Under the pieces are notes generated by a model that saw only the letters and a program-made list of their open reading frames with translations, made no database searches and was not told the DNA's origin. This document shows, one piece after another, positions 1,144 through 50,322 of a stretch of 64,000 nt of DNA; position 1 is the first letter of the stretch; every line of letters starts with the position of its first letter. The stretch is from a virus. The translations under genes and the position numbers were made by a program. The stretch is taken from positions 1-64,000 of IMG/VR virus record IMGVR_UViG_3300035204_001027; one strand, written 5' to 3'.

Positions 1144-1746
1144 ATGAGACTTGACCATATAGCTTATAGATCAAGGGATAGGCACAAAACCTCTTCCTTT
1201 TTGCAAAAATGCTTTGGATATGACATCGTTGAAGAATTTTTTATAGACTTTGGAGACGGCACAAAAGCAGAATGTATCGCTCACGCACCGAGATCCAGAA
1301 TTCCCACGTCCGCCCCCTTCGTTGTAAACGGTAACGATCTCAGCCCCACCTTCATAAAAAAAACCAAGGTACACGAAAATCCCTATTTATTAGCTAATTG
1401 GATGATGCGTAATGAATACCATAGTCCTCCAGAAATTTTTGTAAGTGATGGCCCCAAGGGGTCAATAGTAGGAGATTGGGTTGCATCAAAAAATGATGGC
1501 AAGGGGGGAGTTCATCATATAGCTTACCAAACACAGAACATTGATAGAGCTATCGAGGAGTGGAGGGGGTGTGGTGTAGAATTTCTTTCCGAGGAACCAT
1601 TGAGTTGCCCCGGTCTTAGGCAAATTTTTACAACAGAACATGAGTTGACAGGCGTTATTTACGAGCTTATAGAAAGAGTGGGTGAGGAAGGTAAAGCGTT
1701 TTGTAAAGAAAATGTAAAAAACCTCATGGAGAGCACTGTGGAATAA
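1144..1746 (+). CDS. VOC-superfamily (glyoxalase/dioxygenase-fold) protein
   Basis: 200 residues with two halves resembling the paired beta-alpha-beta3 modules of the vicinal oxygen chelate fold. Possible metal ligands are His5 (LDHIAY), the His pair in GGVHHIAYQ and the Glu in VIYELIER. The second half resembles the style of methylmalonyl-CoA epimerases and hydroxyphenylpyruvate dioxygenases, but the length fits neither well. It is followed after 4 bp by the aldehyde dehydrogenase, suggesting a shared small-molecule pathway. Substrate unknown. Confidence 0.7.
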   Translation: MRLDHIAYRSRDRHKTSSFLQKCFGYDIVEEFFIDFGDGTKAECIAHAPRSRIPTSAPFVVNGNDLSPTFIKKTKVHENPYLLANWMMRNEYHSPPEIFVSDGPKGSIVGDWVASKNDGKGGVHHIAYQTQNIDRAIEEWRGCGVEFLSEEPLSCPGLRQIFTTEHELTGVIYELIERVGEEGKAFCKENVKNLMESTVE

Positions 1747-1750
1747 ATTT

Positions 1751-3238
1751 ATGCAAAAATGGTATGGACAAAATTATGTGGGTAAAAAGTTTTATGGTCC
1801 ATTTGATAAAACTTTTGAAAACATTAACCCTTCTACAGAGGAATCCTTAGGTAGCTTTCCCCTGACTTCTCCGAGCGAGGTGGGAGAAGTAATTCTTATT
1901 GCTAGAAAATCATTTAAGAAATGGAGAAAACTAAGTAGACTTGCTCGGGCAGAATATTTTTACAAAATTTCTAAAATCATAGAAGAAAGAAGAGATGAGC
2001 TCGCTAGGGTTATTTCTCTAGAGACAGGAAAAAATTTTAACGAAAGCATAGCGGAGGTTAATGAGGCTCTTCACATGGCGCAATTCGCTTTTGGTAGCGG
2101 CAGAACACCAGTAGGGGAGGCGGTTGCTTCAGAAATCGCAGACAAGGATAGCTACATGTTAAGAAAGCCGAAGGGCGTAATTGCTATTGTTTCTCCTTTC
2201 AATTTTCCAGTTGCGATTGGAGCTTTTTGGTGCGCTGCCCCAGCGTTAGTAGAGGGTAATACCGTTATTTTAAAACCTTCTGAGGATGCCCCCATGTCTA
2301 GTCAGATTTGTGCGGAGATATTTCATGAGGCTGGAATTCCCGAGGGGGTATTTAATTTAATCCATGGAGATGGAAAAACGGGAGACGCTTTGGTGCGCGG
2401 AGACGTGGACCATATTTGTTTCACTGGTAGCGCAGAAGTAGGTCAGCACATTCGTAAAGTTGCGGCAGAAAGTTGGCATAAAACGACCTCTTGCGAAATG
2501 GGGAGCAAATCTGCTGTTATAGTCTTTGATGATGCGACCATGTCCTTAGCTTTAGATTCTTGTCTTGCGAGCGCGTTTAAGCTTTCGGGTCAAAGATGCG
2601 TTTCTGCTAGCAGATTAATCATTCAAAGGGAGATCGTAGATGAATTTGCGCAGAGATTTGTAGATAAAGCGAAATGCATTAAGTCTGGGAATCCATTCCT
2701 TGACGAGAATACAATCAATGAAGATATGTATTATGGCCCTATTATCAATGAGCAAGGCTTAGAGAAGGTTGTCCAGAACAACAATGATGTTTTTAATGAT
2801 TCCGAGGCTATTCCCCTTTTGCGAGGTAAGAGGCCCGAGGGTAAGGGGTTCTTCATTTCTCCCACCGTCTACAAAACAGAATGGAGGGATGTTTCGTATT
2901 TAAAAAACGAAGTATTCGGCCCGCACGTTGCCATTATTCCTTTTGATACCTTGGAAGATGCAATACGTATATATAATGATACTGATTATGGGCTAGCGGT
3001 TGGGGTTTTGACGAATGATTTCAGAAAAGCGAGGATCATGCGAGACGAATGCGAGGCGGGAATGATCTACTGGAATGGCGGGTCTATTGCTGCTGAGTCT
3101 CATCTCGCTTTTGGCGGGGTTAAAAAATCTGGAAATGGATTTCCTAGTGCGGCTAGAACCTTCAGAGCAGTAACTCATGAAGTAAGCTGGACGGTTAATC
3201 ACGCAGACGATCTCTCCTTTCCTCAAGGCATGAAATGA
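1751..3238 (+). CDS. NAD(P)-dependent aldehyde dehydrogenase
   Basis: 495 residues, full length for the ALDH superfamily. Seen: FTGSAEVG nucleotide-binding motif (224-231), general-base Glu249 in SCEMGSK, nucleophile Cys283 in SGQRCVSASR, and a C-terminal oligomerisation strand. ALDHs oxidise an aldehyde to an acid. The arrangement is reminiscent of semialdehyde dehydrogenases. A saccharopine-dehydrogenase-like gene 1.5 kb downstream raises the possibility of an aminoadipate-semialdehyde-type substrate, which is inference only. The stop overlaps the next gene's start by 4 bp (ATGA). It appears intact, with both catalytic residues. Confidence 0.92.
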   Translation: MQKWYGQNYVGKKFYGPFDKTFENINPSTEESLGSFPLTSPSEVGEVILIARKSFKKWRKLSRLARAEYFYKISKIIEERRDELARVISLETGKNFNESIAEVNEALHMAQFAFGSGRTPVGEAVASEIADKDSYMLRKPKGVIAIVSPFNFPVAIGAFWCAAPALVEGNTVILKPSEDAPMSSQICAEIFHEAGIPEGVFNLIHGDGKTGDALVRGDVDHICFTGSAEVGQHIRKVAAESWHKTTSCEMGSKSAVIVFDDATMSLALDSCLASAFKLSGQRCVSASRLIIQREIVDEFAQRFVDKAKCIKSGNPFLDENTINEDMYYGPIINEQGLEKVVQNNNDVFNDSEAIPLLRGKRPEGKGFFISPTVYKTEWRDVSYLKNEVFGPHVAIIPFDTLEDAIRIYNDTDYGLAVGVLTNDFRKARIMRDECEAGMIYWNGGSIAAESHLAFGGVKKSGNGFPSAARTFRAVTHEVSWTVNHADDLSFPQGMK

Positions 3239-3810
3239 AGCTTAAAGATCTAGTTAGAAATGGCGATTTTTGTATCGTGGGAAATTCTCCCAAGGAACTA
3301 GGCAAAGGCTCTGGGCCCAAAATAGATTCCTACTCTTGCGTCATAAGGATAAATAATTTTGTAGTTTCCGAAGAGTACAAAGAAGATTATGGAAAAAAAA
3401 CAACTGTTTGGGCACACAGTTTTTGTTATGATATAAATCCCAAAGAAGAGATGGAAACAGTAGTTTGCCCTCTGCCATTAAATACTTGGGGAGTCATTGA
3501 TAGGTATCATTGGACAGATGTTGCGTGGATGAAAAGGGACGAATACAAAACAGAATATGCCCCCAACGACGTGTTCCACGAACTGCTTGATAGCGTTACT
3601 GAACCAAGCACAGGCCTAGCTCTTTTATATTGGATAAGTCAGTACGTGGATATCAAGGAAGATCAAGTTTTTGGTTTCGATTTCTTTGGTCGCGGAGAAA
3701 GAGGCGTAGTTACTTCTCATTACTGGGGAGAAGGGGTTAAAACCGCTCATAGCGGAGAGCAAGAGTACAACCTTTTCAAAAAAATCGTAGTAGACAAAGA
3801 TGCAGGATAG
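3235..3810 (+). CDS. GT29 (sialyltransferase-like) glycosyltransferase
   Basis: 191 residues. An L-like sialylmotif is visible (FCIVGNSPKELGKGSGPKID, then VIRINNF, residues 12-42), followed by an S-like motif (EPSTGLALLYW) and a terminal HYWGEG...H..E pattern. This is the signature layout of family GT29, which transfers CMP-activated acidic sugars. No CMP-sugar synthase was seen in the window, so the donor must come from the host or from elsewhere in the genome. It sits between the ALDH and a GT8-like gene in an overlapping operon. No membrane anchor, so cytoplasmic. Confidence 0.75.
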   Translation: MKLKDLVRNGDFCIVGNSPKELGKGSGPKIDSYSCVIRINNFVVSEEYKEDYGKKTTVWAHSFCYDINPKEEMETVVCPLPLNTWGVIDRYHWTDVAWMKRDEYKTEYAPNDVFHELLDSVTEPSTGLALLYWISQYVDIKEDQVFGFDFFGRGERGVVTSHYWGEGVKTAHSGEQEYNLFKKIVVDKDAG

Positions 3811-3811
3811 A

Positions 3812-4714
3812 ATGAAAATTTTTGTAGGAGCCCAACCTTCGCACGATATATTATTGAAGGTACTAACTCATAGTATTAAAAAGCATTGCTCAGAAAGGGT
3901 CAGCGTCAAGCCCCTTTATGGAGCCAAACGAGCAGGGCATAGAATGCCTAATGATGAGTGGAATTCTCCGGGGACTTCTTTTTCGTTTTTTAGATTTTTA
4001 ATTCCAGAAGAAACTTCTTACAGGGGTAAAGCTTTGTATCTAGATTCAGACATGATTGTTTTTTCAGATATAAAAAAATTATTTGATATCGACATGGAGA
4101 ATCACGACGTAATGGTGGCGGAGCATTTTGGTGAAACGGGTCATTCTAGCGTTATGATGATTAACTGCGCCACATGTAAGTGGGATATTGATAATATTTT
4201 GGATGACTTAGATAGTTGTAAGTATTATTATCCTCAATTAATGAGGCTTTCCCCAGTCGTGAACGATATCTCTTTCTTCTCAAAAGAATGGAATTGTTTA
4301 GATAGCTACGATGAAAATACTAATTTATTACATTATACAAAAATGCCATCGCAGCCTTGGTTAACTTGTAATAATCCCATGGGCAAGTATTGGTTTAGGG
4401 AATTTTCTGACACAATGGATTCTGGTGCTATCTCTGGGTCAGATTTGAAACACGCGGTTGAGAATAGGTATATAAGACCTTCGATAATAGACCAAATTCG
4501 CATTGGAGAAGAGGACTCTACCAAGCTTCCAGAGGGGGTTAGAAAAAAAGATACAGATTTCATGGCTTATTGTGAGCAAAATGGTTGGAATAATATGGAA
4601 GGTGCGTATCGCAATTCATATAATATAGAAGATAATGCGATAGCAGGAGAAATCGAAGCAACGAATCAGCAGTTGCATCAATTAAATGATTTTTTAAAAA
4701 ACTTGCATAAATGA
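3812..4714 (+). CDS. GT8-like glycosyltransferase
   Basis: 300 residues starting MKIFVGAQ; an ATG 12 bp upstream is possible but overlaps the previous stop. The GT-A fold metal-binding DxD is seen as LYLDSDMIVF about 75 residues in, preceded by the FRFLIPE segment typical of family 8 (LPS galactosyl/glucosyltransferases, glycogenin-like). The C-terminal 80 residues are helical and unassigned. Operon position beside the GT29-like gene suggests assembly of a glycan, perhaps on the host surface or on a phage protein. Confidence 0.75.
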   Translation: MKIFVGAQPSHDILLKVLTHSIKKHCSERVSVKPLYGAKRAGHRMPNDEWNSPGTSFSFFRFLIPEETSYRGKALYLDSDMIVFSDIKKLFDIDMENHDVMVAEHFGETGHSSVMMINCATCKWDIDNILDDLDSCKYYYPQLMRLSPVVNDISFFSKEWNCLDSYDENTNLLHYTKMPSQPWLTCNNPMGKYWFREFSDTMDSGAISGSDLKHAVENRYIRPSIIDQIRIGEEDSTKLPEGVRKKDTDFMAYCEQNGWNNMEGAYRNSYNIEDNAIAGEIEATNQQLHQLNDFLKNLHK

Positions 4715-5847
4715 GAGCTTTAGTTTTAGGTGTTGGAAGAATGGGAACCGCTATTGCGTGGGCAATGGATAAGTTCGGTTTTCACGTAACTGGTATGGAT
4801 ACTAATCCAGAAGCAGCGAACAATATACCATTTAAGGTAAATAATAATCCTGATCCAAAAAACGAATTCTTTATCGTTAAGGACGTAGAAGATATTTTCG
4901 CTGGCATTGTCGCTCAGAAAAAGCCCGATATCATCATTAGTAGCTTGCCCTATCACCAGACCGAGGAGGTAGGGACTTGGTGCGTAGATAATGGATTAAG
5001 GTATTGCGATTTAGGAGGGAGAGTAGACGTTTCTGCGGCTATAAATGAATGGGCAGAAAAATCAACCTACGCAAGAAAACCGGTGTTTACTGATCTAGGC
5101 TTGGCTCCCGGCTGGGTAAATATCCTAGCAGAAGAAGGATATAAGGCTGTTGGGTCAAAGGCTACTAAAGTGGGTATGTACGTCGGCGGATTACCCAAGT
5201 GGGTTGATATGTCGAATCCTCTCAAATATGAATCCACATGGTCTGTCGATGGGCTTATCAATGAGTATGCTGATGATTGTGAGGTTTTGGAAAATGGAGT
5301 TCTCAAAACCGTGAAGGGAATGAGTGGCTTAGAGCATCTTGAGGTTTTCGGTGCCCCATTTGAAGCTTTCTTTACCAGCGGTGGTGCGGCCCACACCATT
5401 AAATCTATGAAAGATAGGGGGGTGCTTGATTGCTATTATAAAACTTTACGGTACAAAGGGCATAGAAACGTTGTGAATTTTTTGATTAATAGATGCGGCT
5501 TAGAGAAGGAGGTTCTAGAAAAGATATTCGTGAAAGGATGCCCCCCTTCAGAGGAGGGGGATATAGTTATAATGAAGGCTAGTGTTTGGAGTGGGGAGAA
5601 CCCGTCTTTGGTTTGGACTAGACAGATACAAATAAATAGTGATGATAATTTTAGCGCAATGCAGAAGGCCACTGCTTTCTCTATCTCCAGTGTTGCTAAA
5701 ATAATGGCAGAAGGAAAAATGGAAGGAGATAAAGATCAACATAGAGATTATTGGACTCAGTATCCAATGTCGCTTTCGTATTCTGATGTACCATACGATG
5801 AGTTTGATAAAAATTTAAATCAATTAGGAGTCTACAGCGATGGATGA
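4711..5847 (+). CDS. Saccharopine-dehydrogenase-like oxidoreductase
   Basis: 378 residues. An N-terminal Rossmann motif (VLGVGRMGTAIA, GxGxxG) is followed by DIIISSLPYHQTEEV, CDLGGRVDV and GLAPGWVNILAEEG, the pattern of the saccharopine dehydrogenase family, which also includes homospermidine and carboxynorspermidine synthases. The start overlaps the GT8-like gene (ATGA) and the end overlaps the next gene by 8 bp. With the upstream aldehyde dehydrogenase it could form part of a lysine/aminoadipate-type or polyamine-type route; the exact substrate cannot be read from sequence. Confidence 0.8.
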   Translation: MRALVLGVGRMGTAIAWAMDKFGFHVTGMDTNPEAANNIPFKVNNNPDPKNEFFIVKDVEDIFAGIVAQKKPDIIISSLPYHQTEEVGTWCVDNGLRYCDLGGRVDVSAAINEWAEKSTYARKPVFTDLGLAPGWVNILAEEGYKAVGSKATKVGMYVGGLPKWVDMSNPLKYESTWSVDGLINEYADDCEVLENGVLKTVKGMSGLEHLEVFGAPFEAFFTSGGAAHTIKSMKDRGVLDCYYKTLRYKGHRNVVNFLINRCGLEKEVLEKIFVKGCPPSEEGDIVIMKASVWSGENPSLVWTRQIQINSDDNFSAMQKATAFSISSVAKIMAEGKMEGDKDQHRDYWTQYPMSLSYSDVPYDEFDKNLNQLGVYSDG

Positions 5848-6415
5848 AAATAATTCTTTTTTTAAAAACGTACCACTGAGTTTTGAACAAGTGGCTAACG
5901 ATAATGCTTATTCTGATCGAAAATTCGACCTAGACTTAAGCACGGGCTACGTTCCCTTTTTTGAGCACTTTTTCGAAGAACTCGGTAAAAAAAGAGACGC
6001 TCAAGTATTAGTGATTGGGTGCGAAGAGGCTTCTTTCATAAGGAGCGTAGCTGATTATTTTATCAACGGTTCAGTTAAGTATATATCCTGCAGCACTGAA
6101 ATGAGTAGAACGCTAAAACATCAAGAAGAATTTACAGAAAGCAACATTGTTAAGATAGGCTCCTACACCAATAAGAGCGGTCTTGATTTAGATAAGGCAG
6201 TTCACAAGGGGGAATATAAAAATTTAAATGTAGTAATTGACATGAGCCTTTTCGAATTTCAAAAGAAAAATTTTTCTAAAATATCAAAGCTTCAAAAAAA
6301 GAACTCTCGTTATCTCATGATAACTTCTTCTAGTTCGCCTAGGTACGTTAAAGAAGGTGGTGAAGTTTACGAGATAGAAGGCACAAATGATAGGATTACT
6401 GTATTTAAGAAATGA
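5840..6415 (+). CDS. Hypothetical protein, possible Rossmann/methyltransferase-like fold
   Basis: 191 residues. AQVLVIGCEEASFIRSVADYF (around residues 54-74) resembles the motif I loop of class I SAM-dependent methyltransferases, and VVIDMSLFEF could be a later strand. The canonical GxGxG is replaced by IGCEE, so the call is weak. It overlaps both neighbours in the sugar operon, so a role acting on the same glycan or metabolite is plausible. Confidence 0.55.
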   Translation: MDENNSFFKNVPLSFEQVANDNAYSDRKFDLDLSTGYVPFFEHFFEELGKKRDAQVLVIGCEEASFIRSVADYFINGSVKYISCSTEMSRTLKHQEEFTESNIVKIGSYTNKSGLDLDKAVHKGEYKNLNVVIDMSLFEFQKKNFSKISKLQKKNSRYLMITSSSSPRYVKEGGEVYEIEGTNDRITVFKK

Positions 6416-6939
6416 TGCCATTTTATCCCACGGGGGACAAAATAATTCCCTACCGCGAACTTTCTTCTTGGAGAAAAAGTATTGGAGTAACCGAGCCAGA
6501 GTATAAAAATGGACCTTTTGATACCGAATTAGTTGTTACGAATGGGTGTTTCGATGTACTCCATGTAGGTCATGTTGAATATCTTGAGGAGGCTCGCGCG
6601 CAAGGAGATAAGCTTTTAGTGGGAGTAAATAACGATGACTCTGTGCGCTGGCTAAAAGGAAAGGGAAGGCCAATAAATTGCGCCTTGTATAGAGCTAGAG
6701 TTTTGGCTGCACTGGAATGCGTGGATTATGTTACCATATTTCCTAGTCTTGTTCAAGGAAATGCTGCTGATTTTTTAAAGAAAGCTCGTCCAGTGGTATA
6801 TGTTAAAGGCGGGGATTATTCTCTAGATACGTTAAACGAACAAGAGTCAACCGTTCTTCAAAAGTATAAGTCTAATATTTATTTTTCTAAGTTAATAGAG
6901 GGGGTTTCGACGACAAAGCTTCTTGACAATAACTTATAA
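6412..6939 (+). CDS. Heptose-1-phosphate adenylyltransferase-like nucleotidyltransferase
   Basis: 175 residues matching the stand-alone C-terminal domain of HldE/RfaE. Seen: TNGCFDVLHVGHVEYLEEAR (HxGH nucleotide-binding motif), LLVGVNNDDSVRWLKG, VYVKGGDYSLDTLNEQE and the terminal GVSTTKLLD. The family activates D-glycero-beta-D-manno-heptose 1-phosphate to ADP-heptose. A PfkB kinase at 10471 could supply the HldE kinase half. The start overlaps the previous stop (ATGATG junction). Its last codons contain the -35 element of the sigma-factor promoter. Confidence 0.85.
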   Translation: MMPFYPTGDKIIPYRELSSWRKSIGVTEPEYKNGPFDTELVVTNGCFDVLHVGHVEYLEEARAQGDKLLVGVNNDDSVRWLKGKGRPINCALYRARVLAALECVDYVTIFPSLVQGNAADFLKKARPVVYVKGGDYSLDTLNEQESTVLQKYKSNIYFSKLIEGVSTTKLLDNNL

Positions 6940-6951
6940 TTGTGCTAGTAT
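6923..6951 (+). promoter_or_regulatory. Sigma70-type promoter for ECF sigma gene
   Basis: TTGACA (6923-6928), 17-bp spacer, TAGTAT (6946-6951). The -35 lies inside the end of the adenylyltransferase gene. The predicted transcription start (about 6958) is next to the GTG at 6960. Confidence 0.7.
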
Positions 6952-6959
6952 TAGGTATT

Positions 6960-7556
6960 GTGATAAAATATCATTCACTGGAAGAACCAGAGTTATTGCG
7001 TCTTTCTATGGAGGATGAAGATACTGAATCCTTCGATGAGCTAGTTAAGAGAACGGAAAGAAAATTACACTTATCCATGTTAGCTAAGTCTGGCAATCCG
7101 GAGTTAGCTGGTGAAATTTGCCAACAGGCTTTTATTAAATCTTGGAAAAATATTAAAAAATTTAAATGTAAGTCTTCTTTTTATACTTGGATATACCGTA
7201 TATCTCATAATCTTTTAATAGATCATTACAGAAAAGTTAAAAGAAAAAAAGAGCAATCCTTTGAAGAAAGAATGGAATCAGATCCCTTTTTTGAGACTAA
7301 AACGCCCTTGATAGAGAAAACGGCTTATGATAACCTTAACAATGAAGAGTTAATGAAACAGGTAGATATGGCCCTAGAGAAGCTTTCGGAACCTCACAAA
7401 ACGACTTTTGTTCTCTACGAGATAGAGAGATTAAGCTATAAAGAAATAGCTAAAGAAATGAGATGCTCATTAGGAACGGTAATGTCAAGGCTTTTCTACG
7501 CGAGGAGACAGGCTCGTAAATCTCTTTCTAAAATTTTAGAGCTTGACAAACTTTAA
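6960..7556 (+). CDS. ECF-type RNA polymerase sigma factor
   Basis: 198 residues from the GTG chosen because the promoter's predicted start falls at 6958; an upstream GTG at 6942 lies within the promoter. Region 2 is visible (AGEICQQAFIKSWKNIKKF, then SFYTWIYRISHNLLIDHYRK) and region 4 as a helix-turn-helix (LSEPHKTTFVLYEIERLSYKEIA...MRCSLGTVMSRLFYARRQAR). The family redirects host RNA polymerase to specific promoters. An ECF sigma in a phage is uncommon; no anti-sigma gene is adjacent. It could drive a phage middle or late gene class, or a host envelope-stress-like regulon. Confidence 0.92.
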   Translation: MIKYHSLEEPELLRLSMEDEDTESFDELVKRTERKLHLSMLAKSGNPELAGEICQQAFIKSWKNIKKFKCKSSFYTWIYRISHNLLIDHYRKVKRKKEQSFEERMESDPFFETKTPLIEKTAYDNLNNEELMKQVDMALEKLSEPHKTTFVLYEIERLSYKEIAKEMRCSLGTVMSRLFYARRQARKSLSKILELDKL

Positions 7557-7572
7557 AAAGATATGCTATTAT
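7543..7572 (+). promoter_or_regulatory. Sigma70-type promoter, leaderless
   Basis: TTGACA (7543-7548), 18-bp spacer, TATTAT (7567-7572). The start codon at 7579 is 7 bp after the -10, so transcription should begin on the ATG. Confidence 0.75.
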
Positions 7573-7578
7573 TAGAGT

Positions 7579-8118
7579 ATGGAAAACATCTTAGATAAAA
7601 CAAGAACATACCTAGTTGGACATATGCAGTACGCCAACGGTAGAGATTGGCGAGAGTATGTAGAGGGTGAGTTAGAGCCAATGGGTATAAAGATTTTCAA
7701 CCCATATAAAAAGCCTTTTGTAAAAGATGTCGCTGAAGATGAGAACGTGAGAGGTAAGGTTTCTGCTGATATGGAAAACGGTCACTTTAGTGACGTAGCC
7801 AAAAGAATGAAGGAGATTAGAAGTTACGACCTTAATCTCGTTGATAGATCAGATTTCATTATTGCTCACCTTTTACCGGATGTCGCGAGTTGGGGTAGCG
7901 CGGAAGAGATCGTGACAGCAGTAAGAATGAAGAAGCCGGTCTTTGTTTCTATGGAAGGGGGGAAGAATAAAGCCCCTCTTTGGATGATGGGCATGATGCC
8001 GCACAAATATATATATGATTCTATAGATTGCGTGGTAGATATGATTAAAAGAATTGATAGTGGAGAAAAAGATATTGACAGCGACAGATGGAGATTACTA
8101 AGAAAGGAGTTGCGCTAA
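7579..8118 (+). CDS. Nucleoside 2-deoxyribosyltransferase-like protein
   Basis: 179 residues. TYLVGHMQYANGRDWREYV near the start, IFNPYKK, DRSDFIIAHL and SWGSAEEIVTAVRMKKPVF form the layout of the nucleoside 2-deoxyribosyltransferase/DUF4406 fold, which binds nucleotides and in phages is linked to nucleotide salvage or modified bases. Whether it keeps transferase activity is not certain. It has its own promoter with no leader, and a Shine-Dalgarno (AGGAG) for the next gene lies at its 3' end. Confidence 0.7.
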   Translation: MENILDKTRTYLVGHMQYANGRDWREYVEGELEPMGIKIFNPYKKPFVKDVAEDENVRGKVSADMENGHFSDVAKRMKEIRSYDLNLVDRSDFIIAHLLPDVASWGSAEEIVTAVRMKKPVFVSMEGGKNKAPLWMMGMMPHKYIYDSIDCVVDMIKRIDSGEKDIDSDRWRLLRKELR

Positions 8119-8119
8119 A

Positions 8120-8401
8120 ATGCCTATGTGGTCACAAAATCCCGATAAATGGTTCGATTATAATTTCAAAACTTCGAACTTTGATTTAAACAGCGACACT
8201 CCCCTGAGAGAGCAATGGGACAGCCTGTCGGACAGCGAGAAGTGGGAAGAGATGGAAATGACTTTCGACACCATTAGAGACGCTAATCTAGTAATTCAAG
8301 GCTTGGAAACTAACAACGCGAATCTAAAAAAAGAACTAGAGGGAAAAGGCACCACTTGGTTGGACGCCAAATTTGGTTATGGTAAAAGCGAGAATAATTA
8401 A
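8120..8401 (+). CDS. Hypothetical protein, 93 aa
   Basis: Acidic, Trp-rich N-terminal half followed by a helical segment ([26 protein letters not shown]) that could form a short coiled coil. AGGAG at about 8104 gives a good ribosome-binding site. It is one base after the deoxyribosyltransferase-like stop, in the same operon. Function not recognised. Confidence 0.65.
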
Positions 8402-8406
8402 AAATT

Positions 8407-9123
8407 ATGTCAAAACCAATGTCAAAGAAGGCGACAGTAAGGATTGGATTGCCGTCAAAACCGCACAGCAAACAAACAATAAGAATTATGCTACCATCAC
8501 AAAAAGATAAAGGAGCAGGAACACAAGTCCCCGCCCCGCCACCACAAGCGCAACAGCCACTAGTGGCTTCTGCTCCAGAAACGGCGAGATCGCCCCATCC
8601 TGTTCCGCTTCAAGCTCCACCAGTTGCACCGCCCCAAGGTGCGCCTGTTACTTTACCATCAGCAGTCACCCAACCGGCGGTTCCTGCTCAACCAGCGGCC
8701 CCTGCTCAACCAGCGGCCCCTGTTCAACCAGCGGCCCCTGTTCAACCAGCGGCCCCTGTTCAACCAGCGGCCCCTGCTCAACCAGCGGCCCCTGCTCAAC
8801 CAGCGGCCCCTGCTCTTGTCCCCGAACAGGGAGTTCCTACGGATCAACCCGCTCCATTTCCAGCCACTCCAATATCTCCTAGCCAAGTAGCGCAGACAGT
8901 AAATGCTGCCGCGAACACGATTTCTGGGGCAGTAGAGAGGGTTGAAAAATCTGTTGACTCAATAGATTATGCGCAGTTAGGCAAGCAAGTTGCGGCCAAT
9001 GTTGACTTTAAAACGGAGATAGCTAAAGCAATAGGAAAAAAACAACAAATTTTCGACTTGGTTTTAGCGTCAATAGCATTAGTAGTTTCACTTGGGGTTC
9101 TTGTTTCCCTATGGAGAATTTAA
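8407..9123 (+). CDS. Pro/Ala-rich tail-anchored membrane protein
   Basis: 238 residues in three parts: a basic N-terminal segment with a near-repeat ([11 protein letters not shown] / [11 protein letters not shown]), a low-complexity Pro/Ala/Gln region with eight six-residue QPAAPx repeats (about residues 89-136), and a C-terminal helix followed by one hydrophobic segment (about 214-233) with a short end. The layout suggests a tail-anchored protein with a stiff extended arm. TonB-like spacers and spanins use similar Pro-rich arms, but no catalytic domain is present. Function unknown. Confidence 0.7.
8671..8814 (+). repeat. 18-bp tandem repeat, 8 units
   Basis: Eight consecutive copies of CAACCAGCGGCCCCTGYT, the first diverged, all in frame and encoding [12 protein letters not shown]. 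The near-identity of the units at DNA level suggests recent expansion by slippage. Confidence 0.95.
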
Positions 9124-9130
9124 TTAAATT

Positions 9131-9409
9131 ATGAAAAAAGATAGAAAAGGTCGAGATATCGAAGTTGGTGATATTGTTGCTTTCGACGTTCCTGTTACCT
9201 TTGGTGCCGCAGGGAAGATGAATAGCGAGTTGTGGGATATTTTTTGGGGCAAAGCGGAGGAAGACGGCATTAGAGTCGTGGTTGATCCAGTAACCCAACA
9301 GAAAGATGTTCTATATGACTATTGTGATAGTGACCAAGGCATGCTGATTATTCGTCGTGCAGCAGACCCAGATGTCGAAGCGATGATGCAAGACCAGAAA
9401 GAAGAGTGA
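9131..9409 (+). CDS. Hypothetical protein with DxxGxxIxVGDIV opening
   Basis: 92 residues beginning KKDRKGRDIEVGDIVAF, an opening seen in many small phage proteins that form a beta-barrel. The rest is acidic with no Cys cluster. It lies 7 bp after the Pro/Ala-rich gene. Function unknown. Confidence 0.6.
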   Translation: MKKDRKGRDIEVGDIVAFDVPVTFGAAGKMNSELWDIFWGKAEEDGIRVVVDPVTQQKDVLYDYCDSDQGMLIIRRAADPDVEAMMQDQKEE

Positions 9410-9418
9410 GTAATAAAA

Positions 9419-10039
9419 ATGACTCCCAGAGAATATGTCGAACAAGAAAAACGTAGACATGAAGGGGAAAGAGATGCCAAGTTAGCTTTAGCGGAAGCTT
9501 GGCATATTCCCCTTGGGAGTCAATTAAAATTAAATTTTGCCTTAGCGGGAATGTCCGAATGGAGGCTGGAGGCGAAAGACGTTCCATTTTTTATAAGGCT
9601 CTTCGAAAATCCATCTTCTCCATTTTGTGAATTCGGTATTATGCCGGGATGTGTCAATTTATTCACTCACGATTGTATACACGCCATATTAAGTAGAGGC
9701 ATCCTACCTAAAGACGAAGCGTTCGTTATTGGATACACAATGGGAAGCACAAAAAAATTGGGATGGCTTAGGGAGAAAATATTTTTATTTATCGCTAGGT
9801 GGCTGTATCCAGAAGGTTATAAATTTCATAGAGAAGAGCGAGAAGTTTTTCGGGTAGGTGTTATGGCTGGTCTAAAATGTAAGTATGATTTAACTAGGGT
9901 CGATTTTAAAAAAATGCTAAATCATAAGCTACCTTATGTTCGCAAAAGGCTGGGTATGGATTCAAAACTTTTACAGCTTTGTTATCTTTTAGAAAAAAGA
10001 GCTTATCCAAATAGCGTGGAAAGCCAAAGGCTCGCATGA
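9419..10039 (+). CDS. Coq4-like protein (tentative)
   Basis: 206 residues. The central segment FTHDCIHAILSRGILPKDEA carries an HDxxH motif followed by an acidic position, as in the zinc-binding HDxxHxxxG...E pattern of Coq4 ubiquinone-biosynthesis proteins. The following GYTMGSTKK...VFRVGVMAGLK helices also fit. Overall similarity is modest and the protein may simply be an all-alpha metal-binding relative. It overlaps the next gene by 4 bp (ATGA). Confidence 0.55.
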   Translation: MTPREYVEQEKRRHEGERDAKLALAEAWHIPLGSQLKLNFALAGMSEWRLEAKDVPFFIRLFENPSSPFCEFGIMPGCVNLFTHDCIHAILSRGILPKDEAFVIGYTMGSTKKLGWLREKIFLFIARWLYPEGYKFHREEREVFRVGVMAGLKCKYDLTRVDFKKMLNHKLPYVRKRLGMDSKLLQLCYLLEKRAYPNSVESQRLA

Positions 10040-10425
10040 AAATAGGATTTACTTGTTCATCTTTCGACTTATTGCATACTGGACATGTCATGATGCTGAA
10101 AGAGAGTAGAGATAATTGTGACAAGTTGATAGTCGGCCTTCAAAATGATCCAACGCTGGATAGGCCAGATAAAAATAAGCCCGTTCAAAGTTATTTTGAA
10201 CGCTACATTCAACTAGAGGCGATAAAATATGTGGACGAAATATGCCCATATGAGACAGAAGAAGACTTAATGAAACTTCTTCGTTATATTCGTCCGGATA
10301 TTAGATTTATAGGAGAAGATTGGGAGGGGAAGATGTTTACGGGCATTGGGCTTGGAATAAAAACTTTTTATAATAAAAGATACGGATACTCGACCTCTGA
10401 GTTAAGAAATAGATTAAAACTATAG
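10036..10425 (+). CDS. Glycerol-3-phosphate cytidylyltransferase-like protein
   Basis: 129 residues, the usual size of TagD-type enzymes. Seen: GFTCSSFDLLHTGHVMMLKE with the HxGH motif, LIVGLQNDPT, and a terminal GYSTSELRNRL resembling the RTxGISTT position, with Tyr/Ser substitutions. The family makes CDP-glycerol, but related enzymes activate other sugar or polyol phosphates. Together with the adenylyltransferase at 6412 it gives the phage two HxGH nucleotidyltransferases. Confidence 0.8.
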   Translation: MKIGFTCSSFDLLHTGHVMMLKESRDNCDKLIVGLQNDPTLDRPDKNKPVQSYFERYIQLEAIKYVDEICPYETEEDLMKLLRYIRPDIRFIGEDWEGKMFTGIGLGIKTFYNKRYGYSTSELRNRLKL

Positions 10426-10470
10426 AATATGTGGATTTAACCTTTCTTGATGTGGATAATAATATAAGGA

Positions 10471-11238
10471 ATGAAATTTTTAGCAATAGGAGATAGTTGC
10501 ACTGATGTATTTATCTATGGAAAATGCGAAAGGATTTGTCCAGAGGCTCCCGTGCCTGTTTTTAATCCCATTAAAGAGAAAACTAATGCGGGTATGGCCG
10601 CTAACGTACAGGCGAATGTGAACGCTCTTGGCGTGGAGTGCGACCTAGTCACTCAGTCGAATGAAATATTAAAAACTAGGTATGTAGATATTAAAACGAA
10701 TCAAATGTTGCTACGGGTTGACGAAAATGATGCGGCAGAAGACAAGTTCAATTATAAGGACATTTCTTGGCGTAAGTATGATGCGGTCTTAGTCTCAAAT
10801 TACGGCAAAGGCTTTCTTCGCGCGTGTGCAATTCGTGACGTATGTCAGTATCATGATAATGTTTATCTCGATAGTAATAAAGTTCATATGAATTGTGATC
10901 TGCCTCTTAATTTAAAATTTTTAAAAATAAATGAACACGAATTAGAAATAAATAAACACTGGAAAGGACACTTGCACAGGAGCCAACACGGAGACAGTTC
11001 TTACAATAGGCCAGCGCAAATAATTGTTACCTACGGACACAAGGGGTGCATGTATATGGGGAAGATGTATCCACCTCCGGAAAGGGTGGTTGCTCAGGAT
11101 TTATCTGGAGCAGGAGACACTTTCTTAGCGGCACTTGCAGTGTCTATGACTAGGGTGGGAGATGCGGAGACAGCCATAGAGTATGCAAATGAATGTGCAA
11201 GCAAAGTGGTAGCGAAAAGGGGAGTAGCCACTCCATAG
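10471..11238 (+). CDS. PfkB-family sugar kinase (HldE N-domain-like)
   Basis: 255 residues. Substrate-side motif NAGMAANVQANVNALG near residue 40 and the C-terminal PfkB signature QDLSGAGDTFLAALAV with catalytic Asp are visible, as in the heptose-7-phosphate kinase half of HldE. It is shorter than the usual ~320-residue domain, mainly in the middle. With the gene at 6412 it would reconstitute a split HldE; the intervening phosphatase step (GmhB) could be done by the host or by the HAD protein at 42134. AGGA lies just before the ATG. Confidence 0.8.
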   Translation: MKFLAIGDSCTDVFIYGKCERICPEAPVPVFNPIKEKTNAGMAANVQANVNALGVECDLVTQSNEILKTRYVDIKTNQMLLRVDENDAAEDKFNYKDISWRKYDAVLVSNYGKGFLRACAIRDVCQYHDNVYLDSNKVHMNCDLPLNLKFLKINEHELEINKHWKGHLHRSQHGDSSYNRPAQIIVTYGHKGCMYMGKMYPPPERVVAQDLSGAGDTFLAALAVSMTRVGDAETAIEYANECASKVVAKRGVATP

Positions 11239-11242
11239 AGTT

Positions 11243-11515
11243 ATGCCTTCTGTATGTATCCCTATAAATAAAAATAAAAAAATAAGCATGATTGAGCATT
11301 TGAAAAAAAACTGGATGGGCTGGCTTGGAGCAGCATTAGTTTTATTGGGGTATGTATTTAATGCCCATCACCATACCCTTTGTTGGCCCATATGGATCGT
11401 AGGCAACATTTTAGTAGGCTTTTACTCAATAAATAAAGAAGCTTATTCTACGGCAGTCATGTCTTTCGTCTTAGTTATAATTAACATATATGGCTGGACA
11501 CATTGGATATCATGA
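11243..11515 (+). CDS. Small PnuC-like membrane protein
   Basis: 90 residues from the first ATG, 4 bp after the kinase stop; an internal ATG at 11288 would give 75 residues and begins just before the membrane region. Three hydrophobic segments are visible: WLGAALVLLGYVF, WPIWIVGNILVGFY and TAVMSFVLVIINIYGW. The order and the GNILVGFYSINK and IYGW motifs resemble short NMN-transporter (PnuC)-like proteins, but it is too small to be a complete transporter unless it oligomerises. Confidence 0.65.
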   Translation: MPSVCIPINKNKKISMIEHLKKNWMGWLGAALVLLGYVFNAHHHTLCWPIWIVGNILVGFYSINKEAYSTAVMSFVLVIINIYGWTHWIS

Positions 11516-11703
11516 AAACAAAAAGAAAGAAACATAAAACTAAAGACCCAAATTATAATACTTATACCTATGGGAGCAGTAAGTCTCCATTTGATATAGA
11601 ATGGATAAAATATTACAATCCTGTGGAAGGCCGCGATCAAATATTATTTCTCTATAAAAAAAAGCGGAGCAAGACTATTGTCAAGTATAGAATTATGAGG
11701 TGA
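11512..11703 (+). CDS. Hypothetical basic protein, 63 aa
   Basis: Lys/Arg-rich, with an N-terminal KTKRKKHKTK stretch and a Tyr-rich middle. The ATG at 11512 overlaps the previous stop (ATGA), which decides the start over an upstream TTG. The stop overlaps the next start (TGATG). Possibly nucleic-acid binding by charge; no family recognised. Confidence 0.6.
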   Translation: MKTKRKKHKTKDPNYNTYTYGSSKSPFDIEWIKYYNPVEGRDQILFLYKKKRSKTIVKYRIMR

Positions 11704-12065
11704 TGTATAAATACAAAGCCAAGTTAGTAAGGGTAATAGACGGAGACACCCTAGACGCAATGATTGATCTCGGCTTTAATACTTGGGTTAAGAAGCGTAT
11801 TAGATTATCTAGCATCAACGCTTTCGAAACGCGCACGAGAAATAAAGAAATAAAAAGAAAAGGTTTGGCGGCGAAAGCTAGAGTAGTCGAGATTCTTGAG
11901 CAGAACAATAATGAATTTTTACTTATATCGCATGGGCTTGGTAAATACGGACGATGCCTAGGAGAATTACATATTGAGAAAAATTATATCAAGTCAGAGA
12001 AGTATGAGGGAAAAATAATAAATGAACTCCTTGTGGAAGAGGGGCACGCTGTTAAATACAAATGA
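11703..12065 (+). CDS. Thermonuclease-like (SNase) nuclease
   Basis: 120 residues matching the staphylococcal-nuclease OB-fold: VRVIDGDTLDAMIDLG (Ca-binding Asp), RIRLSSINAFETR (catalytic Arg/Glu region), KYGRCLGEL (second Arg) and INELLVEEGHAVKY at the C-terminus. No signal peptide is seen, so it acts in the cytoplasm, perhaps in host DNA/RNA breakdown or repair. Start by TGATG overlap with the previous gene. Confidence 0.88.
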   Translation: MYKYKAKLVRVIDGDTLDAMIDLGFNTWVKKRIRLSSINAFETRTRNKEIKRKGLAAKARVVEILEQNNNEFLLISHGLGKYGRCLGELHIEKNYIKSEKYEGKIINELLVEEGHAVKYK

Positions 12066-12322
12066 AAAAATATTTTGACCACAGTACGAAGCCAACGACA
12101 TACTGCATCGAACACGAAGGTGACGTTGTTTTTCGAGGCACTTATGAAGATGGTATGTTATTTATTAAGGCTTCAGAAAATGGTGGAAAAATAGACTTTC
12201 TAGATGATTATATCCCTGCGATGCGTAGGCTCCGAAAGTTTTGCCAGAGAGGTTTTAAGTGTGAGAGAGAATTGAGGCGGGAAATAATAAAACTTAAAAA
12301 GGAAATAAAGAATGCCAAATAA
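12062..12322 (+). CDS. Hypothetical protein, 86 aa
   Basis: Beta-rich N-terminal half and a strongly basic helical C-terminus (REIIKLKKEIKNAK). It overlaps the nuclease gene by 4 bp and the glycosyltransferase by 11 bp. Three Cys, no membrane segment. Function unknown. Confidence 0.6.
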   Translation: MKKYFDHSTKPTTYCIEHEGDVVFRGTYEDGMLFIKASENGGKIDFLDDYIPAMRRLRKFCQRGFKCERELRREIIKLKKEIKNAK

Positions 12323-13022
12323 ACAACCGCATTTGCTTGTTGTAACTCCGTGTAGTGGCGGAGTTGCCCATGTCGGATACATGACTTCATGCCTCGCATT
12401 ACAAAGAAGCTTCTTGAGTAAGGGGTGGAATATAAATTTTAGTTTTAAATCTGGAGCTTTGCTTCATCGCCTCAGAAACGAATTTGTTTTAGAATTTATA
12501 AATGATGATAAATATACTCATCTTCTTATGATTGATTCTGATATTCAATTCTCGGCGGATTCTGTAATTGAGATGTTAAACTTAAATAAGGGGGTGGTTG
12601 CTGGGGTTGTCCCACTAAAGAAATATGTAGATGGAGGTTTAAAATACAATTCTTTAGTTAAAGAGGGTGTTACTCGTTTAGAGTCAGACGGCAGCGTTGA
12701 ATTAAGTTCGACTGGGACAGCTTTCGTTTTAGTAGAGAAAAGCATTTTCGACAAAATAAAACCTCTATGTAAAAAAGTCAAATATACTTCTCAAGATGAA
12801 GATGTGAATCACATATGGGGAGACTCAACGCAGGAATTATGGAGTTTTTTTGATTTTCCTCTTGATGAAAATCTTGTAGAGATGGGGGAAGATATTTCTT
12901 TTTGCAGAAAGCTCTCGGAAGCGGGTATCTCAATTTGGGCTATGCCCAGTGAAAGCTTCACACATTGGGGTATTAATAATTATCAAGGAAATACAATGAG
13001 TTTCCTCACGACAGGGAAATAA
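12312..13022 (+). CDS. GT-A fold glycosyltransferase
   Basis: 236 residues of the phage/Anp1-like type: LLVVTPCSGGVAHVGYMTS at the N-terminus, RLRNEFV, then the metal-binding DxD in HLLMIDSDIQF and VVAGVVPLKKY. A later EDISFCRKLSEAG and WAMPSESFTHWG resemble acceptor-side motifs of GT2 enzymes. This is the third glycosyltransferase in the window. Target unknown: host surface glycan, phage protein or modified base are all possible. Confidence 0.8.
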   Translation: MPNKQPHLLVVTPCSGGVAHVGYMTSCLALQRSFLSKGWNINFSFKSGALLHRLRNEFVLEFINDDKYTHLLMIDSDIQFSADSVIEMLNLNKGVVAGVVPLKKYVDGGLKYNSLVKEGVTRLESDGSVELSSTGTAFVLVEKSIFDKIKPLCKKVKYTSQDEDVNHIWGDSTQELWSFFDFPLDENLVEMGEDISFCRKLSEAGISIWAMPSESFTHWGINNYQGNTMSFLTTGK

Positions 13023-13026
13023 ATAC

Positions 13027-13056
13027 TTGACAAAAAGTTTAAAAATATGTTATCAT
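13027..13056 (+). promoter_or_regulatory. Sigma70-type promoter, leaderless
   Basis: TTGACA (13027-13032), 18-bp spacer, TATCAT (13051-13056), with the ATG at 13063 seven bases after the -10. Confidence 0.7.
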
Positions 13057-13062
13057 ATTAAT

Positions 13063-13200
13063 ATGAGAGAATGGTTACAAAAAGTAGAGAGAAAGCTGGA
13101 TAAATGCAATCACCTCATGGAGCTAATGAGAACCTCGCTTGCGCTTTGTACCCTTGCTTTACAGGCTATAATCTTATTAAAACTTTTTAATATAATATGA
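13063..13200 (+). CDS. Single-TM micropeptide, 45 aa
   Basis: MREWLQKVERKL helix, then a hydrophobic C-terminal segment (LALCTLALQAIILLKLF). The start lies at the predicted transcription start of its own promoter, and the stop overlaps the next gene (ATATGA). Likely an inner-membrane micropeptide; role unknown. Confidence 0.65.
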   Translation: MREWLQKVERKLDKCNHLMELMRTSLALCTLALQAIILLKLFNII

Positions 13201-13832
13201 AGAAAGACTATATACCATTACAAAACGGCGACGGAGAACTGGAAGCCTACTTTTTAAAAAATAAATCCAAAGAGCCAAATAAAGAAGCTTTACCAGAGGA
13301 CGCTTATGGCCTTTCTCCTATTATTGAAGACGCCGATGCGAGCGCGGAACACGAATTGCCGCAGTCTTGGATAGAACCCATTCCTCTCTGTGGGCCTTCT
13401 GTTCATGGTGTATCTGGGTGTTGCCCCATAGGAGAGAAGGGGGAAGTGGGAGAAGTAGGTGTTCCAGCACCTCACCCGCTCAATCCCCTCAATGAGGAAC
13501 ACATGGTCGATCAACTGGGGAAACCACCCACCACAGAAGAAAAAGAAGCTTTTTTCAAAAAGGTCATGGGCAAGCTCAAAGGATGGACTACACCAGCGAA
13601 AACAGCGCAGCTTGATGATTCAATAGAGGAAGATGTGGTTAACGACCTTGTTGCGGGTAGGGTTTATAAAATAAAAGGATTAAACATCATAGCGAGGTAT
13701 AAGATGACTCTGGAAACAGGTCACATCGTTATGAGTTTCCACGGGCATAGATTCCTTGTAGTTAAGGAGGATAACATGGTGCTTAAAGCAGGTACAAATG
13801 AGGTGGAAAAATACCTAAATAAGATATTGTGA
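13197..13832 (+). CDS. Hypothetical protein, 211 aa
   Basis: N-terminal half is acidic and Pro-rich with a short collagen-like GEKGEVGEVG stretch, probably disordered. The C-terminal 80 residues (DLVAGRVYKIKGLNIIARYKM...GHRFLVVKEDNMV) look like a compact beta domain. It overlaps both neighbours by 4 bp. No family recognised. Confidence 0.6.
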   Translation: MKKDYIPLQNGDGELEAYFLKNKSKEPNKEALPEDAYGLSPIIEDADASAEHELPQSWIEPIPLCGPSVHGVSGCCPIGEKGEVGEVGVPAPHPLNPLNEEHMVDQLGKPPTTEEKEAFFKKVMGKLKGWTTPAKTAQLDDSIEEDVVNDLVAGRVYKIKGLNIIARYKMTLETGHIVMSFHGHRFLVVKEDNMVLKAGTNEVEKYLNKIL

Positions 13833-14140
13833 AAACATTTTGTGTGAATCTTGACGGCTGGAAGCGAGACGTTGAAATAGATGATTCTATATTCGATAAA
13901 TATTCTGACATGGCTACCGAAGCAGCAACCATTGCACTGGAGTCTCGTTACAAGTCTAATAAACCGCAAGAAATAAGTTGGTTTATCGTCGTATCAGAAA
14001 AGGGATATGAGGATGACCCAAATAAAATAATTATTATACTTACTGAACATATTTTACGCAATGCTGGTTATCATAATGATGCCGAGACATTAAAAACAAA
14101 TATTTCTGACGAAATAAGAAAGATAAATGGGCTAGAATGA
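13829..14140 (+). CDS. Hypothetical protein, 103 aa
   Basis: GTG start overlapping the previous stop (GTGA). Acidic mixed alpha/beta protein with ISWFIVVSEKGYEDDPNKIIII, no membrane segment. It overlaps the oxygenase gene by 4 bp. Function unknown. Confidence 0.6.
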   Translation: MKTFCVNLDGWKRDVEIDDSIFDKYSDMATEAATIALESRYKSNKPQEISWFIVVSEKGYEDDPNKIIIILTEHILRNAGYHNDAETLKTNISDEIRKINGLE

Positions 14141-14748
14141 AATCTCACAACGACTTTTTTTTAACAGACAGAAGTGATAAAAACTTTCTAAATTATTATT
14201 GGTTTGAGAATGGTTTTTCTGAAAACGAAATACAAAAGATTGAGAGCCAAATAAAAGAAGACAACGTAGAATTAGATGACGGAGTTATTTTCGCTGACAA
14301 AGACAATTTAGAAAGCATACATAAAGTTAGAAAGAGCAAAATTACTTGGCTACAAGAAAAGGATGAGTGGCAATGGCTTTATGATAAGTTTATAGAGCTA
14401 ACAGGGATTAGTAATAAGGCCATGTGGCAGTCAGAATTAGTAGGAATGACAGAGAAGATTCAGTATTCTCATTACTACGGAGATGGCGGTCATTATAGTT
14501 GGCATATGGATTTAGGTAATGGTCATGCAGCTAGGAGAAAAATAACCATAGTAGTTCAACTATCTGACCCAGATGATTACGAAGGTGGGGATTTAGAATT
14601 TATGCTACGAGCAGACCCAACGACAGTACCGAAAAATAAGGGTGCAGTAGTTTTGTTTCCCTCATGGATGCTTCATCGGGTAACGCCTGTAACGAAAGGA
14701 TTAAGAAAATCCTTGGTTGCTTGGGTAAGTGGCCCAAGCTGGAAATAG
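14137..14748 (+). CDS. 2OG-Fe(II) dioxygenase, PKHD/prolyl-4-hydroxylase type
   Basis: 203 residues. Iron ligands are seen as His123-x-Asp125 (YSWHMDLGN) and His180 (MLHRVTPV), with the 2-oxoglutarate-binding Arg at about 190 (GLRKSLVAW). GGDLEF precedes the distal His as in PKHD-type hydroxylases. The family hydroxylates protein or small-molecule substrates and is common in large marine phages; the substrate here is unknown. It ends immediately before the convergent minus-strand lipoprotein gene. Confidence 0.85.
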   Translation: MKSHNDFFLTDRSDKNFLNYYWFENGFSENEIQKIESQIKEDNVELDDGVIFADKDNLESIHKVRKSKITWLQEKDEWQWLYDKFIELTGISNKAMWQSELVGMTEKIQYSHYYGDGGHYSWHMDLGNGHAARRKITIVVQLSDPDDYEGGDLEFMLRADPTTVPKNKGAVVLFPSWMLHRVTPVTKGLRKSLVAWVSGPSWK

Positions 14749-33092: not shown

Positions 33093-33121
33093 TTGACAAT
33101 CAAGCTGAAACGTGCTATATT
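33093..33121 (+). promoter_or_regulatory. Sigma70-type promoter, leaderless
   Basis: TTGACA (33093-33098), 17-bp spacer, TATATT (33116-33121); the ATG at 33128 is 7 bp after the -10. Confidence 0.78.
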
Positions 33122-33127
33122 ATACTC

Positions 33128-33856
33128 ATGAAACTACTTGGAATCGACACAAACGCAAAAACCCGTAAAGGCCAGAAAAAAGGTTATATGACGGGAATCT
33201 CTTACCTCGCACCCAGCAATGCCAGCGGTGTGATGAACACTTGCCCATCAGCGAGCAAAGGCTGTCGTGCAGCTTGCCTGTTTACGTCAGGGAGAGGCCG
33301 TATGAATCCTGTTATGGAAGCTAGAATCAACAAGACAAAACTTCTTGCCAGTGATTCGCTGTCATACTTAAAACAGCTTAAACGTGAGATTGAAGCTCTA
33401 ATGAAACGCGCAGCGAAGAATGATAAAACCGCCTGTGTTCGTCTCAATGGCACTAGCGATATTGCTTGGGAGGAATACTTGTTAGACGGAAAGAATATCT
33501 TTGAGCATTTCCCGAATTGTCAATTTTACGACTACACAAAGCGTCTGGCTCGTGTTGCTGATTATGCAAACGGAAAGTTGCCGAGCAACTATCACTTGAC
33601 CTTTTCTCATAGTGAAAACACTAGCGAAGAAACTGTGAAAGATGTTTTGAATCGTGGCGTGAATGTCGCTGTGGTTTACAAAGACGTTTTGCCGGTAGAA
33701 GATTTCGGTGGTGTAGAGGTCGTCAATGGTGATGAAGATGATTTGCGTTTTTTAGATGCTATCGGAAAAATCGTTGGCCTAATCTATAAGAAAACTAAAG
33801 CAACAGAAGATGAATGGAATGGATTTGTGCGCCTCACGAAAGTAGAGGTGGCATAG
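33128..33856 (+). CDS. GP88-family phage protein
   Basis: 242 residues. GISYLAPSNASGVMNTCPSASKGC followed by RAACLFTSGRG is the hallmark of the phage family named after mycobacteriophage gene product 88; three Cys in this block suggest metal or Fe-S binding. CVRLNGTSDIAWE and FYDYTKRL resemble strands of a TIM-barrel-like fold. Function is not established. It has its own leaderless promoter. Confidence 0.75.
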   Translation: MKLLGIDTNAKTRKGQKKGYMTGISYLAPSNASGVMNTCPSASKGCRAACLFTSGRGRMNPVMEARINKTKLLASDSLSYLKQLKREIEALMKRAAKNDKTACVRLNGTSDIAWEEYLLDGKNIFEHFPNCQFYDYTKRLARVADYANGKLPSNYHLTFSHSENTSEETVKDVLNRGVNVAVVYKDVLPVEDFGGVEVVNGDEDDLRFLDAIGKIVGLIYKKTKATEDEWNGFVRLTKVEVA

Positions 33857-33965: not shown

Positions 33966-34039
33966 AGTGGTGTGGCCAAGTGGTAAGGCGTTGCTCTGCA
34001 AAAGCGAGATCGTGGGTTCGACTCCCACCACCACTTCCA
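33966..34039 (+). tRNA. tRNA-Cys (GCA)
   Basis: Full cloverleaf: acceptor AGTGGTG/CACCACT, D-arm GCC...GGC, anticodon stem TTGCT/AGCGA with loop CTGCAAA (anticodon GCA), T-arm GTGGG-TTCGACT-CCCAC, discriminator T and encoded CCA. U73 agrees with Cys identity. The only tRNA gene found in the window. Confidence 0.95.
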
Positions 34040-34736: not shown

Positions 34737-35227
34737 CAGTTGAGCGAGAAATCGTTCTTTGAAAATTTAAGGGTGAAATTGGTGTTGCTGGACTGGATAA
34801 CAAGGTTCGAAGGTCAAACAAGGCGACAGCCTGACGCAGGAAAGCCCCTAGTGGAAGCGCGACGAAGCTAGACGGTGATACGATACTGGTCGGGTCAGGT
34901 TCGAATCCTGACACCCTGAACAATTTAAGCTGACGACGGTTGGCTTAAGGGAATGGCTGAATATCCCTCCAACATAAGGGGAAAGGCATGGGGCCACCTG
35001 AGAGAGTGTTATCGCATGACTCTTGTGGTTTTAGTAGACTGGTTAACTTGAACTGTATTGTGTGCTGGTCTTGATGGTAATGCAGCAATCCATCTTCCCA
35101 TTAATTTATAGGGTGAAGTAACAAACGTCCGCAAAGAGGAAACGGCCCAATAAACAAAGTGCAAGGAGTTGTGGCGTAACGGTGCATCGTGCCACGTAAA
35201 GCACTTAAAAAATTCTCCCTTTTTTTT
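34737..35227 (+). ncRNA. Candidate large structured non-coding RNA
   Basis: About 490 nt with a promoter, no sustained reading frame on the sense strand and many strong hairpins: GAGCGA-GAAA-TCGTTC (34742-34757); a tRNA-like T-arm GTCAGG-TTCGAAT-CCTGAC (34894-34912) next to CACCC, which can pair to GGGTG near 34771; a 10-bp hairpin with GACG loop (34924-34948); CCAC...GTGG with inner AGAGT/ACTCT (34994-35028); GATGG/CCATC (35073-35094); and a terminal GTGGC/GCCAC hairpin enclosed by AAGTGC/GCACTT (35157-35206), ending in eight T. Large phage RNAs of the GOLLD and ROOL classes also lie near tRNA genes, but no class match can be proven by eye. Not a tmRNA: no tag frame and a different 5' end. 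Confidence 0.7.
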
Positions 35228-42547: not shown

Positions 42548-42576
42548 AAAGTGTAACATACAGAGGAAAGGAAATT

Positions 42577-50310: not shown

Positions 50311-50322
50311 GGGAAAAGAAAA

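Follow-up and report, generated by a model that had tools for sequence, protein, structure and literature searches.

A complete ECF sigma factor with an early-type promoter in a phage from an uncultured marine family that has a conserved second sigma-like gene

Sigma factor homologs occur in a minority of phages. Of 4,350 phage genomes surveyed, 13.4% had at least one, with a single homolog in 11.7%, two in 1.1% and three in 0.7% (PMC9429907), and precedents exist for non-essential phage sigmas which alter host expression (PMC9429907). Two sigmas of the extracytoplasmic function (ECF) type, gp36 of phiEco32 and gp47 of Salmonella phage 7-11, drive middle and late promoters of the phages that encode them, and are thought to represent separate acquisitions (PMC8948821, PMC4281155). 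The former, reported to lack region 4 homology (PMC8948821), acts on single-element middle/late promoters with the element tAATGTAtA, placed 6-8 nt before the transcription start; the latter acts on bipartite late promoters (PMC8948821, PMC4281155) of the form GTAAtg-16-aCTA (PMC8948821). The initial annotation of the DNA considered here regarded an ECF sigma factor as unusual in a phage, which, given the frequency of sigma homologs and the proven ECF types of phiEco32 and 7-11, is only partly right (PMC9429907, PMC8948821, PMC4281155). Less ordinary is the setting, in which an optional ECF gene stands beside a fixed, family-wide sigma-like gene.

The window, by which we mean the whole stretch analysed, covers positions 1-64000 of a virus record that is 95,511 bases long. 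This record is genuine phage DNA, as it holds genes for terminase, portal, RIIA, RIIB, PhoH, ClpP and DNA ligase, together with an endolysin-like gene; these sit in the same record as the ECF gene, and the description of the latter as phage-carried therefore stands. Neither a DNA polymerase nor a replicative helicase was seen among the record's ORFs searched, and the records of relatives extend up to 162 and 209 kb, so that the record is most likely a fragment. Membership of the phage family was defined by one gene:

47185-49014, + strand: terminase large subunit, defining the family (75 loci)

The terminase has 75 relatives in IMG/VR, and among the matches listed it is at most 25% identical, over 61% of its length, to those of cultured phages. 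The family is abundant, uncultured and marine, with no cultured close relative. The sequence of G001, the member closest to this phage with 89% terminase identity, leaves out the ECF region, and near relatives may thus share the ECF gene. Large tail-like proteins encoded at 49060-52143 and at record positions 67462-82487 contain collagen-like Gly-X-Y (GPTGPTG) stretches.

The ECF gene and the promoters at its two ends are as follows:

6923-6951, + strand: early promoter of sigma70 type (TTGACA-N17-TAGTAT) serving the ECF gene and matching the phage's early promoter set
6960-7556, + strand: ECF sigma gene, an open frame from GTG to TAA, 198 aa
7543-7578, + strand: next early promoter, TTGACA-N18-TATTAT, 6 nt before ATG 7579

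The gene, present in one copy in the record, encodes a complete group 4 (ECF) sigma factor, with region 2 at about residues 29-95 and region 4 at about residues 134-186; Pfam, NCBIfam and PDB matches alike confirm the claim that both DNA-binding regions are present. The protein passes the cut-offs of Pfam Sigma70_r2 (PF04542; 47.7 bits against 24), Sigma70_r4_2 (PF08281; 47.5 bits against 25.7) and Sigma70_ECF (35.6 bits, over the cut-off), as well as that of the NCBIfam sigma70-ECF model TIGR02937 (96 bits against 42.9). Its nearest PDB entries are Pseudomonas aeruginosa AlgU (E 3e-22) and Escherichia coli RpoE (E 2e-20), both matched over nearly the full length and both about one third identical to it. 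Regions 1.1 and 3 are absent, there is no further Pfam domain, and the size fits the group 4 sigmas of about 200 aa. The RpoE equivalog model TIGR02939 scores the protein at 102 bits, below its cut-off of 236. In alignment N84 corresponds to RpoE N80, a residue invariant among eight aligned ECFs; M175 and Y180, both in the recognition helix, occupy the positions of RpoE Arg171 and Arg176. In RpoE these two arginines contact the -35 element; because methionine and tyrosine replace them here, the -35 preference may differ from that of RpoE. A structure predicted from one sequence had a mean pLDDT of 40 and was left out of the evidence.

As had also been claimed, the gene has its own promoter directly before its GTG: TTGACA at 6923-6928 is followed after 17 nt by TAGTAT at 6946-6951, and after a further 8 nt by the GTG at 6960. 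With only 8 nt between the -10 hexamer and the start codon, the ECF mRNA probably has no leader, or almost none. A second in-frame GTG, at 6942, precedes the predicted transcription start, which makes 6960 the likely start of the protein. To judge from the promoter consensus, the gene would be early and read by the main sigma of the host. The 3' part of the ECF gene runs into the promoter at 7543-7578, which gives the downstream gene a start of its own. Among the neighbours of the ECF gene none matched an anti-sigma Pfam family, and no nearby ORF contains the HxxxCxxC zinc anti-sigma motif, in agreement with the statement that no anti-sigma lies adjacent. Three genes past the ECF gene, at 8407-9123, lies a gene for a proline/alanine-repeat protein that carries a single membrane-like segment at its C terminus and no anti-sigma signature. 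The ECF gene adjoins a block of metabolic and glycan genes (1144-14748), in which we observed a glyoxalase, an aldehyde dehydrogenase, a saccharopine dehydrogenase-like protein, two nucleotidyltransferases, a PfkB kinase, partial matches to GT29 and GT8, an NMN transporter-like protein and a 2OG-Fe(II) oxygenase.

The promoter of the ECF gene belongs to a large class, of which a further example is:

33093-33130, + strand: early promoter TTGACA-N17-TATATT, with ATG 33128 placed 6 nt after the -10

Some 25-31 near-perfect TTGACA-N17/18-TAtatT promoters lie in 6923-39760, all on the + strand. Early-type sites number 31 on the + strand left of 40.1 kb, against 5 for the record's entire - strand and 9-19 per strand in shuffled sequence, and such a promoter precedes 20 of the 43 early but one of the 20 late starts in this record. 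In most cases an ATG follows the -10 hexamer by 5-7 nt, that is, at the expected transcription start, and early mRNAs therefore look leaderless. There are two sub-classes, N18 with TATTAT or TAGTAT, mostly left of 32 kb, and N17 with tgtgkTATATTata, from 32 to 40 kb; the same early class, similarly spaced, is also found in relatives G001, G019 and G034. We rejected the TTGACA/TATATT promoters as ECF targets, as they are consensus sigma70 sites and also occur in records of relatives that gave no ECF match. The early region also contains a manA RNA motif (Rfam RF01745, 59.7 bits) at 34926-35104, with a tRNA-Cys at 33966-34039, about 1 kb upstream of it.

These promoters bear on the question of whether the ECF gene is a mere passenger, a piece of cellular DNA brought in by an assembly join or a recent transfer and without a role in infection. 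The GC content of the gene (0.34) is below that of the window (0.40), and genes left of 6.4 kb lack counterparts in the stretches of relatives that were compared. However, the frame is intact, the gene is preceded by the phage's own early promoter type, as found also at 7543, 13027 and 16186, and homologs of the genes at 6412, 11512, 13063 and 16223 occur in the records of relatives. We regard a passenger origin as the least credible of the explanations considered, and improbable.

The analysis brought to light no target promoter for the ECF sigma. The proposal that it drives a class of phage promoters predicts a -35/-10 pair absent from the early promoters, which was looked for in the 95.5-kb record without any ECF-type class standing out. 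Known ECF promoter types (ECF02, SigW-type, phiEco32 and 7-11) were all at chance level in the record, and the RpoE-type pair GAACTT/TCTGA occurred zero times on the forward and once on the reverse strand of the 95.5-kb fragment, where 1.0 was expected per strand. Among 45 upstream regions devoid of an early or late element, neither gapped nor plain k-mers revealed a third promoter class above shuffles. Within this fragment the proposal is therefore not supported, the more so because the sole new class detected, GTGTAA/T, occurs throughout the family in company with another sigma-like gene, sig2. As the replication genes sought were not seen and relatives reach 209 kb, a phage promoter class belonging to the ECF sigma may lie on missing sequence.

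The sites of this new element and the sig2 gene are:

40354-40359, + strand: GTGTAA late element, 8 nt before ATG 40368, where the late half begins with the PhoH operon
42551-42556, + strand: GTGTAA late element before ORF 42577
44480-45169, + strand: sigma-like gene sig2, 229 aa, region 2 conserved and region 4 weak, upstream of terminase
49021-49026, + strand: GTGTAA late element between terminase and the tail-like gene at 49060, with an orthologous site in relative L005
62575-62580, + strand: GTGTAA late element, 14 nt before ATG 62595
Record positions 66636, 67041, 78702 and 91903, right of the window: GTGTAA/T before late genes

An unbiased k-mer count over 321 late intergenic regions of the family, which, being taken from related loci, are only partly independent, placed GTGTAA as the top hexamer (118 regions against 10.5 expected), with the Shine-Dalgarno AGGAGA ranking behind it. 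In the de-duplicated set of 49 distinct contexts, the element lies most often 9-13 nt before the ATG, and no -35 element is visible before it. Within this record, 8 of 20 late starts but none of 43 early ones have GTGTAW upstream (p = 3e-5); in the terminase-centred loci it stands before 176 of 460 starts, compared with a frequency of 0.8% in coding 60-mers. The signal resides in placement, as the record-wide count of GTGTAA is not enriched (19 against 23.8 expected). We take GTGTAA/T to be a likely late promoter consisting of a -10 element only.

The product of sig2 is the best candidate for a late sigma, and putatively the reader of GTGTAA/T, because the element co-occurs with the gene throughout the family. 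Sigma region 2 is matched by sig2 in all 15 aligned family members, mostly above the Pfam cut-off in the relatives; TIGR02937 matches it weakly, over regions 2 to 4, and the linker contains conserved cysteines at positions 88, 91, 100 and 110. The gene is found upstream of terminase in the family, and at least 557 of its relatives are present in IMG/VR. Its predicted structure (pLDDT 68, pTM 0.38) is too uncertain to serve as proof, and a Foldseek search with this model returned mostly sigma factors and polymerase-related models, none of them significant (best E 0.03).

Alternatively, the ECF protein could itself serve middle or late genes, like its counterparts in phiEco32 and 7-11, and read either GTGTAA/T or promoters located on sequence that the record lacks. 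Its gene does sit in the early region, and the tAATGTAtA of phiEco32 offers a precedent which resembles GTGTAA/T with its position 8-13 nt before the ATG. Yet GTGTAA/T is distributed across the family, including members without a detected ECF such as G034 and G009, in the latter of which the 45 kb upstream of sig2 contain no second sigma; on this distribution we disfavour the element as an ECF target. Moreover, sig2 is common to nearly all members, a canonical ECF region 4 predicts a -35 element where GTGTAA/T sites show none, and this fragment has no ECF-type promoter class. Hence we consider a middle or late role for the ECF sigma unlikely, and favour sig2 as the late sigma.

The distribution of the ECF gene suggests an accessory. 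Searched over their full length, the records of 36 family members yielded no relative of the ECF protein; most of these records are fragments, such that each single absence is weak evidence. A search with the region-2 model found sig2 in nearly all of 31 relatives and additional sigmas, one or two each and none of them ECF, in three:

L101:4930-5820, L220:1317-2135, L218:758-1351 and L219:1039-1641: extra sigmas of relatives G019, G052 and G063

That of G019 is RpoD-like, G052 has an RpoD-like and a small divergent sigma, and G063 a small divergent one; additional sigmas thus appear patchy and of differing kinds. Queried with the protein, IMG/VR contained no close relatives of the ECF sigma, while a four-row alignment query retrieved 14 ECF-bearing viral contigs with 24-37% identity, all of which lack sig2. 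A search of bacterial genomes produced one match (34%), in a Sphingobacteriia MAG, which is not enough to identify the donor or the host.

This patchy occurrence, together with the bacterial-like sequence, the metabolic gene neighbourhood and the failure to find a phage promoter class, would also be expected of a sigma factor that acts purely on host genes, possibly an envelope regulon or, as the initial annotation suggested, a stress regulon, whose expression helps the phage, in the manner of the sporulation-like sigmas of Bacillus phages; phage sigmas of this non-essential kind are known to alter host expression (PMC9429907). The M175 and Y180 substitutions mean, however, that RpoE specificity cannot be assumed. 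An exclusively host-directed role strikes us as a serious contender, albeit with the balance somewhat against it.

On the available evidence we think it probable, with some reservation, that this is a working early accessory ECF sigma, likely acquired recently, which guides the core RNA polymerase of the host to few promoters, and is not a late-gene switch. The gene would have been taken from a bacterium, probably fairly recently, and transcribed early from its host sigma70-type promoter into what is probably a leaderless mRNA. Its product would be active once made, because no anti-sigma lies beside it, and would bind host core RNA polymerase and redirect it to a limited number of ECF-type promoters, most likely those of host genes or a few phage promoters outside the 95.5-kb fragment. 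Late structural genes would more likely be served by sig2 via the -10-only GTGTAA/T.

For the family as a whole, we are evenly poised over a broader model in which the divergent core protein sig2 conducts late transcription from -10-only GTGTAA/T promoters, yielding near-leaderless late mRNAs, early genes rely on leaderless host sigma70 promoters, and individual members add exchangeable sigmas (ECF here, and the RpoD-like and small divergent types of G019, G052 and G063) which may tune host takeover. Two near-leaderless promoter classes and a core late-sigma candidate render the transcription programme of a large uncultured family readable, and the timing of expression predictable, from sequence. 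The family also lends itself to experiments on how sigmas of host origin are gained and lost while the phage's own sigma-like protein stays in place.

Among cellular proteins, RpoE and AlgU share the domain layout of the ECF sigma described here and about one third of its residues over the full length, but differ in that no anti-sigma of the RseA/MucA type was found beside the phage gene, no RpoE-type promoter was found in the fragment, and two arginines of the -35 helix are replaced by Met and Tyr. SaPh711_gp47 of phage 7-11 is likewise phage-encoded, sigma24-like and in possession of region 4, and its independent acquisition from bacteria has been proposed (PMC8948821). It differs in being the late sigma of 7-11 and in its sequence, as the ECF sigma here is closer to bacterial ECFs (34%) than to gp47 (15-19%); a single-comparison BLASTP (E 0.010, 19% identity) did not establish a sequence relation, and the GTAAtg-16-aCTA pattern is at chance level in this record. 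The lytic phage phiEco32 (Kuravirus) also combines a small ECF-type sigma, gp36, with early genes on host sigma70 promoters, but single-comparison BLASTP of gp36 gave E 0.029 over a short stretch, without meaningful similarity, and the pairing of gp36 with tAATGTAtA is resembled more by sig2 and GTGTAA than by the ECF sigma. The sigE of Microcystis phage MaAM05, also annotated as an ECF sigma in a phage record, is 27% identical and has unrelated neighbours. T4 gp55 is a late sigma, a divergent region-2 protein acting on -10-only late promoters; sig2, if its pairing with GTGTAA/T is correct, is like gp55 in outline, a comparison that involves no demonstrated sequence relation and bears on sig2, not on the ECF sigma. 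The latter adds to the known phage-borne ECF sigmas one that is optional in a lineage already equipped with a core sigma-like protein.
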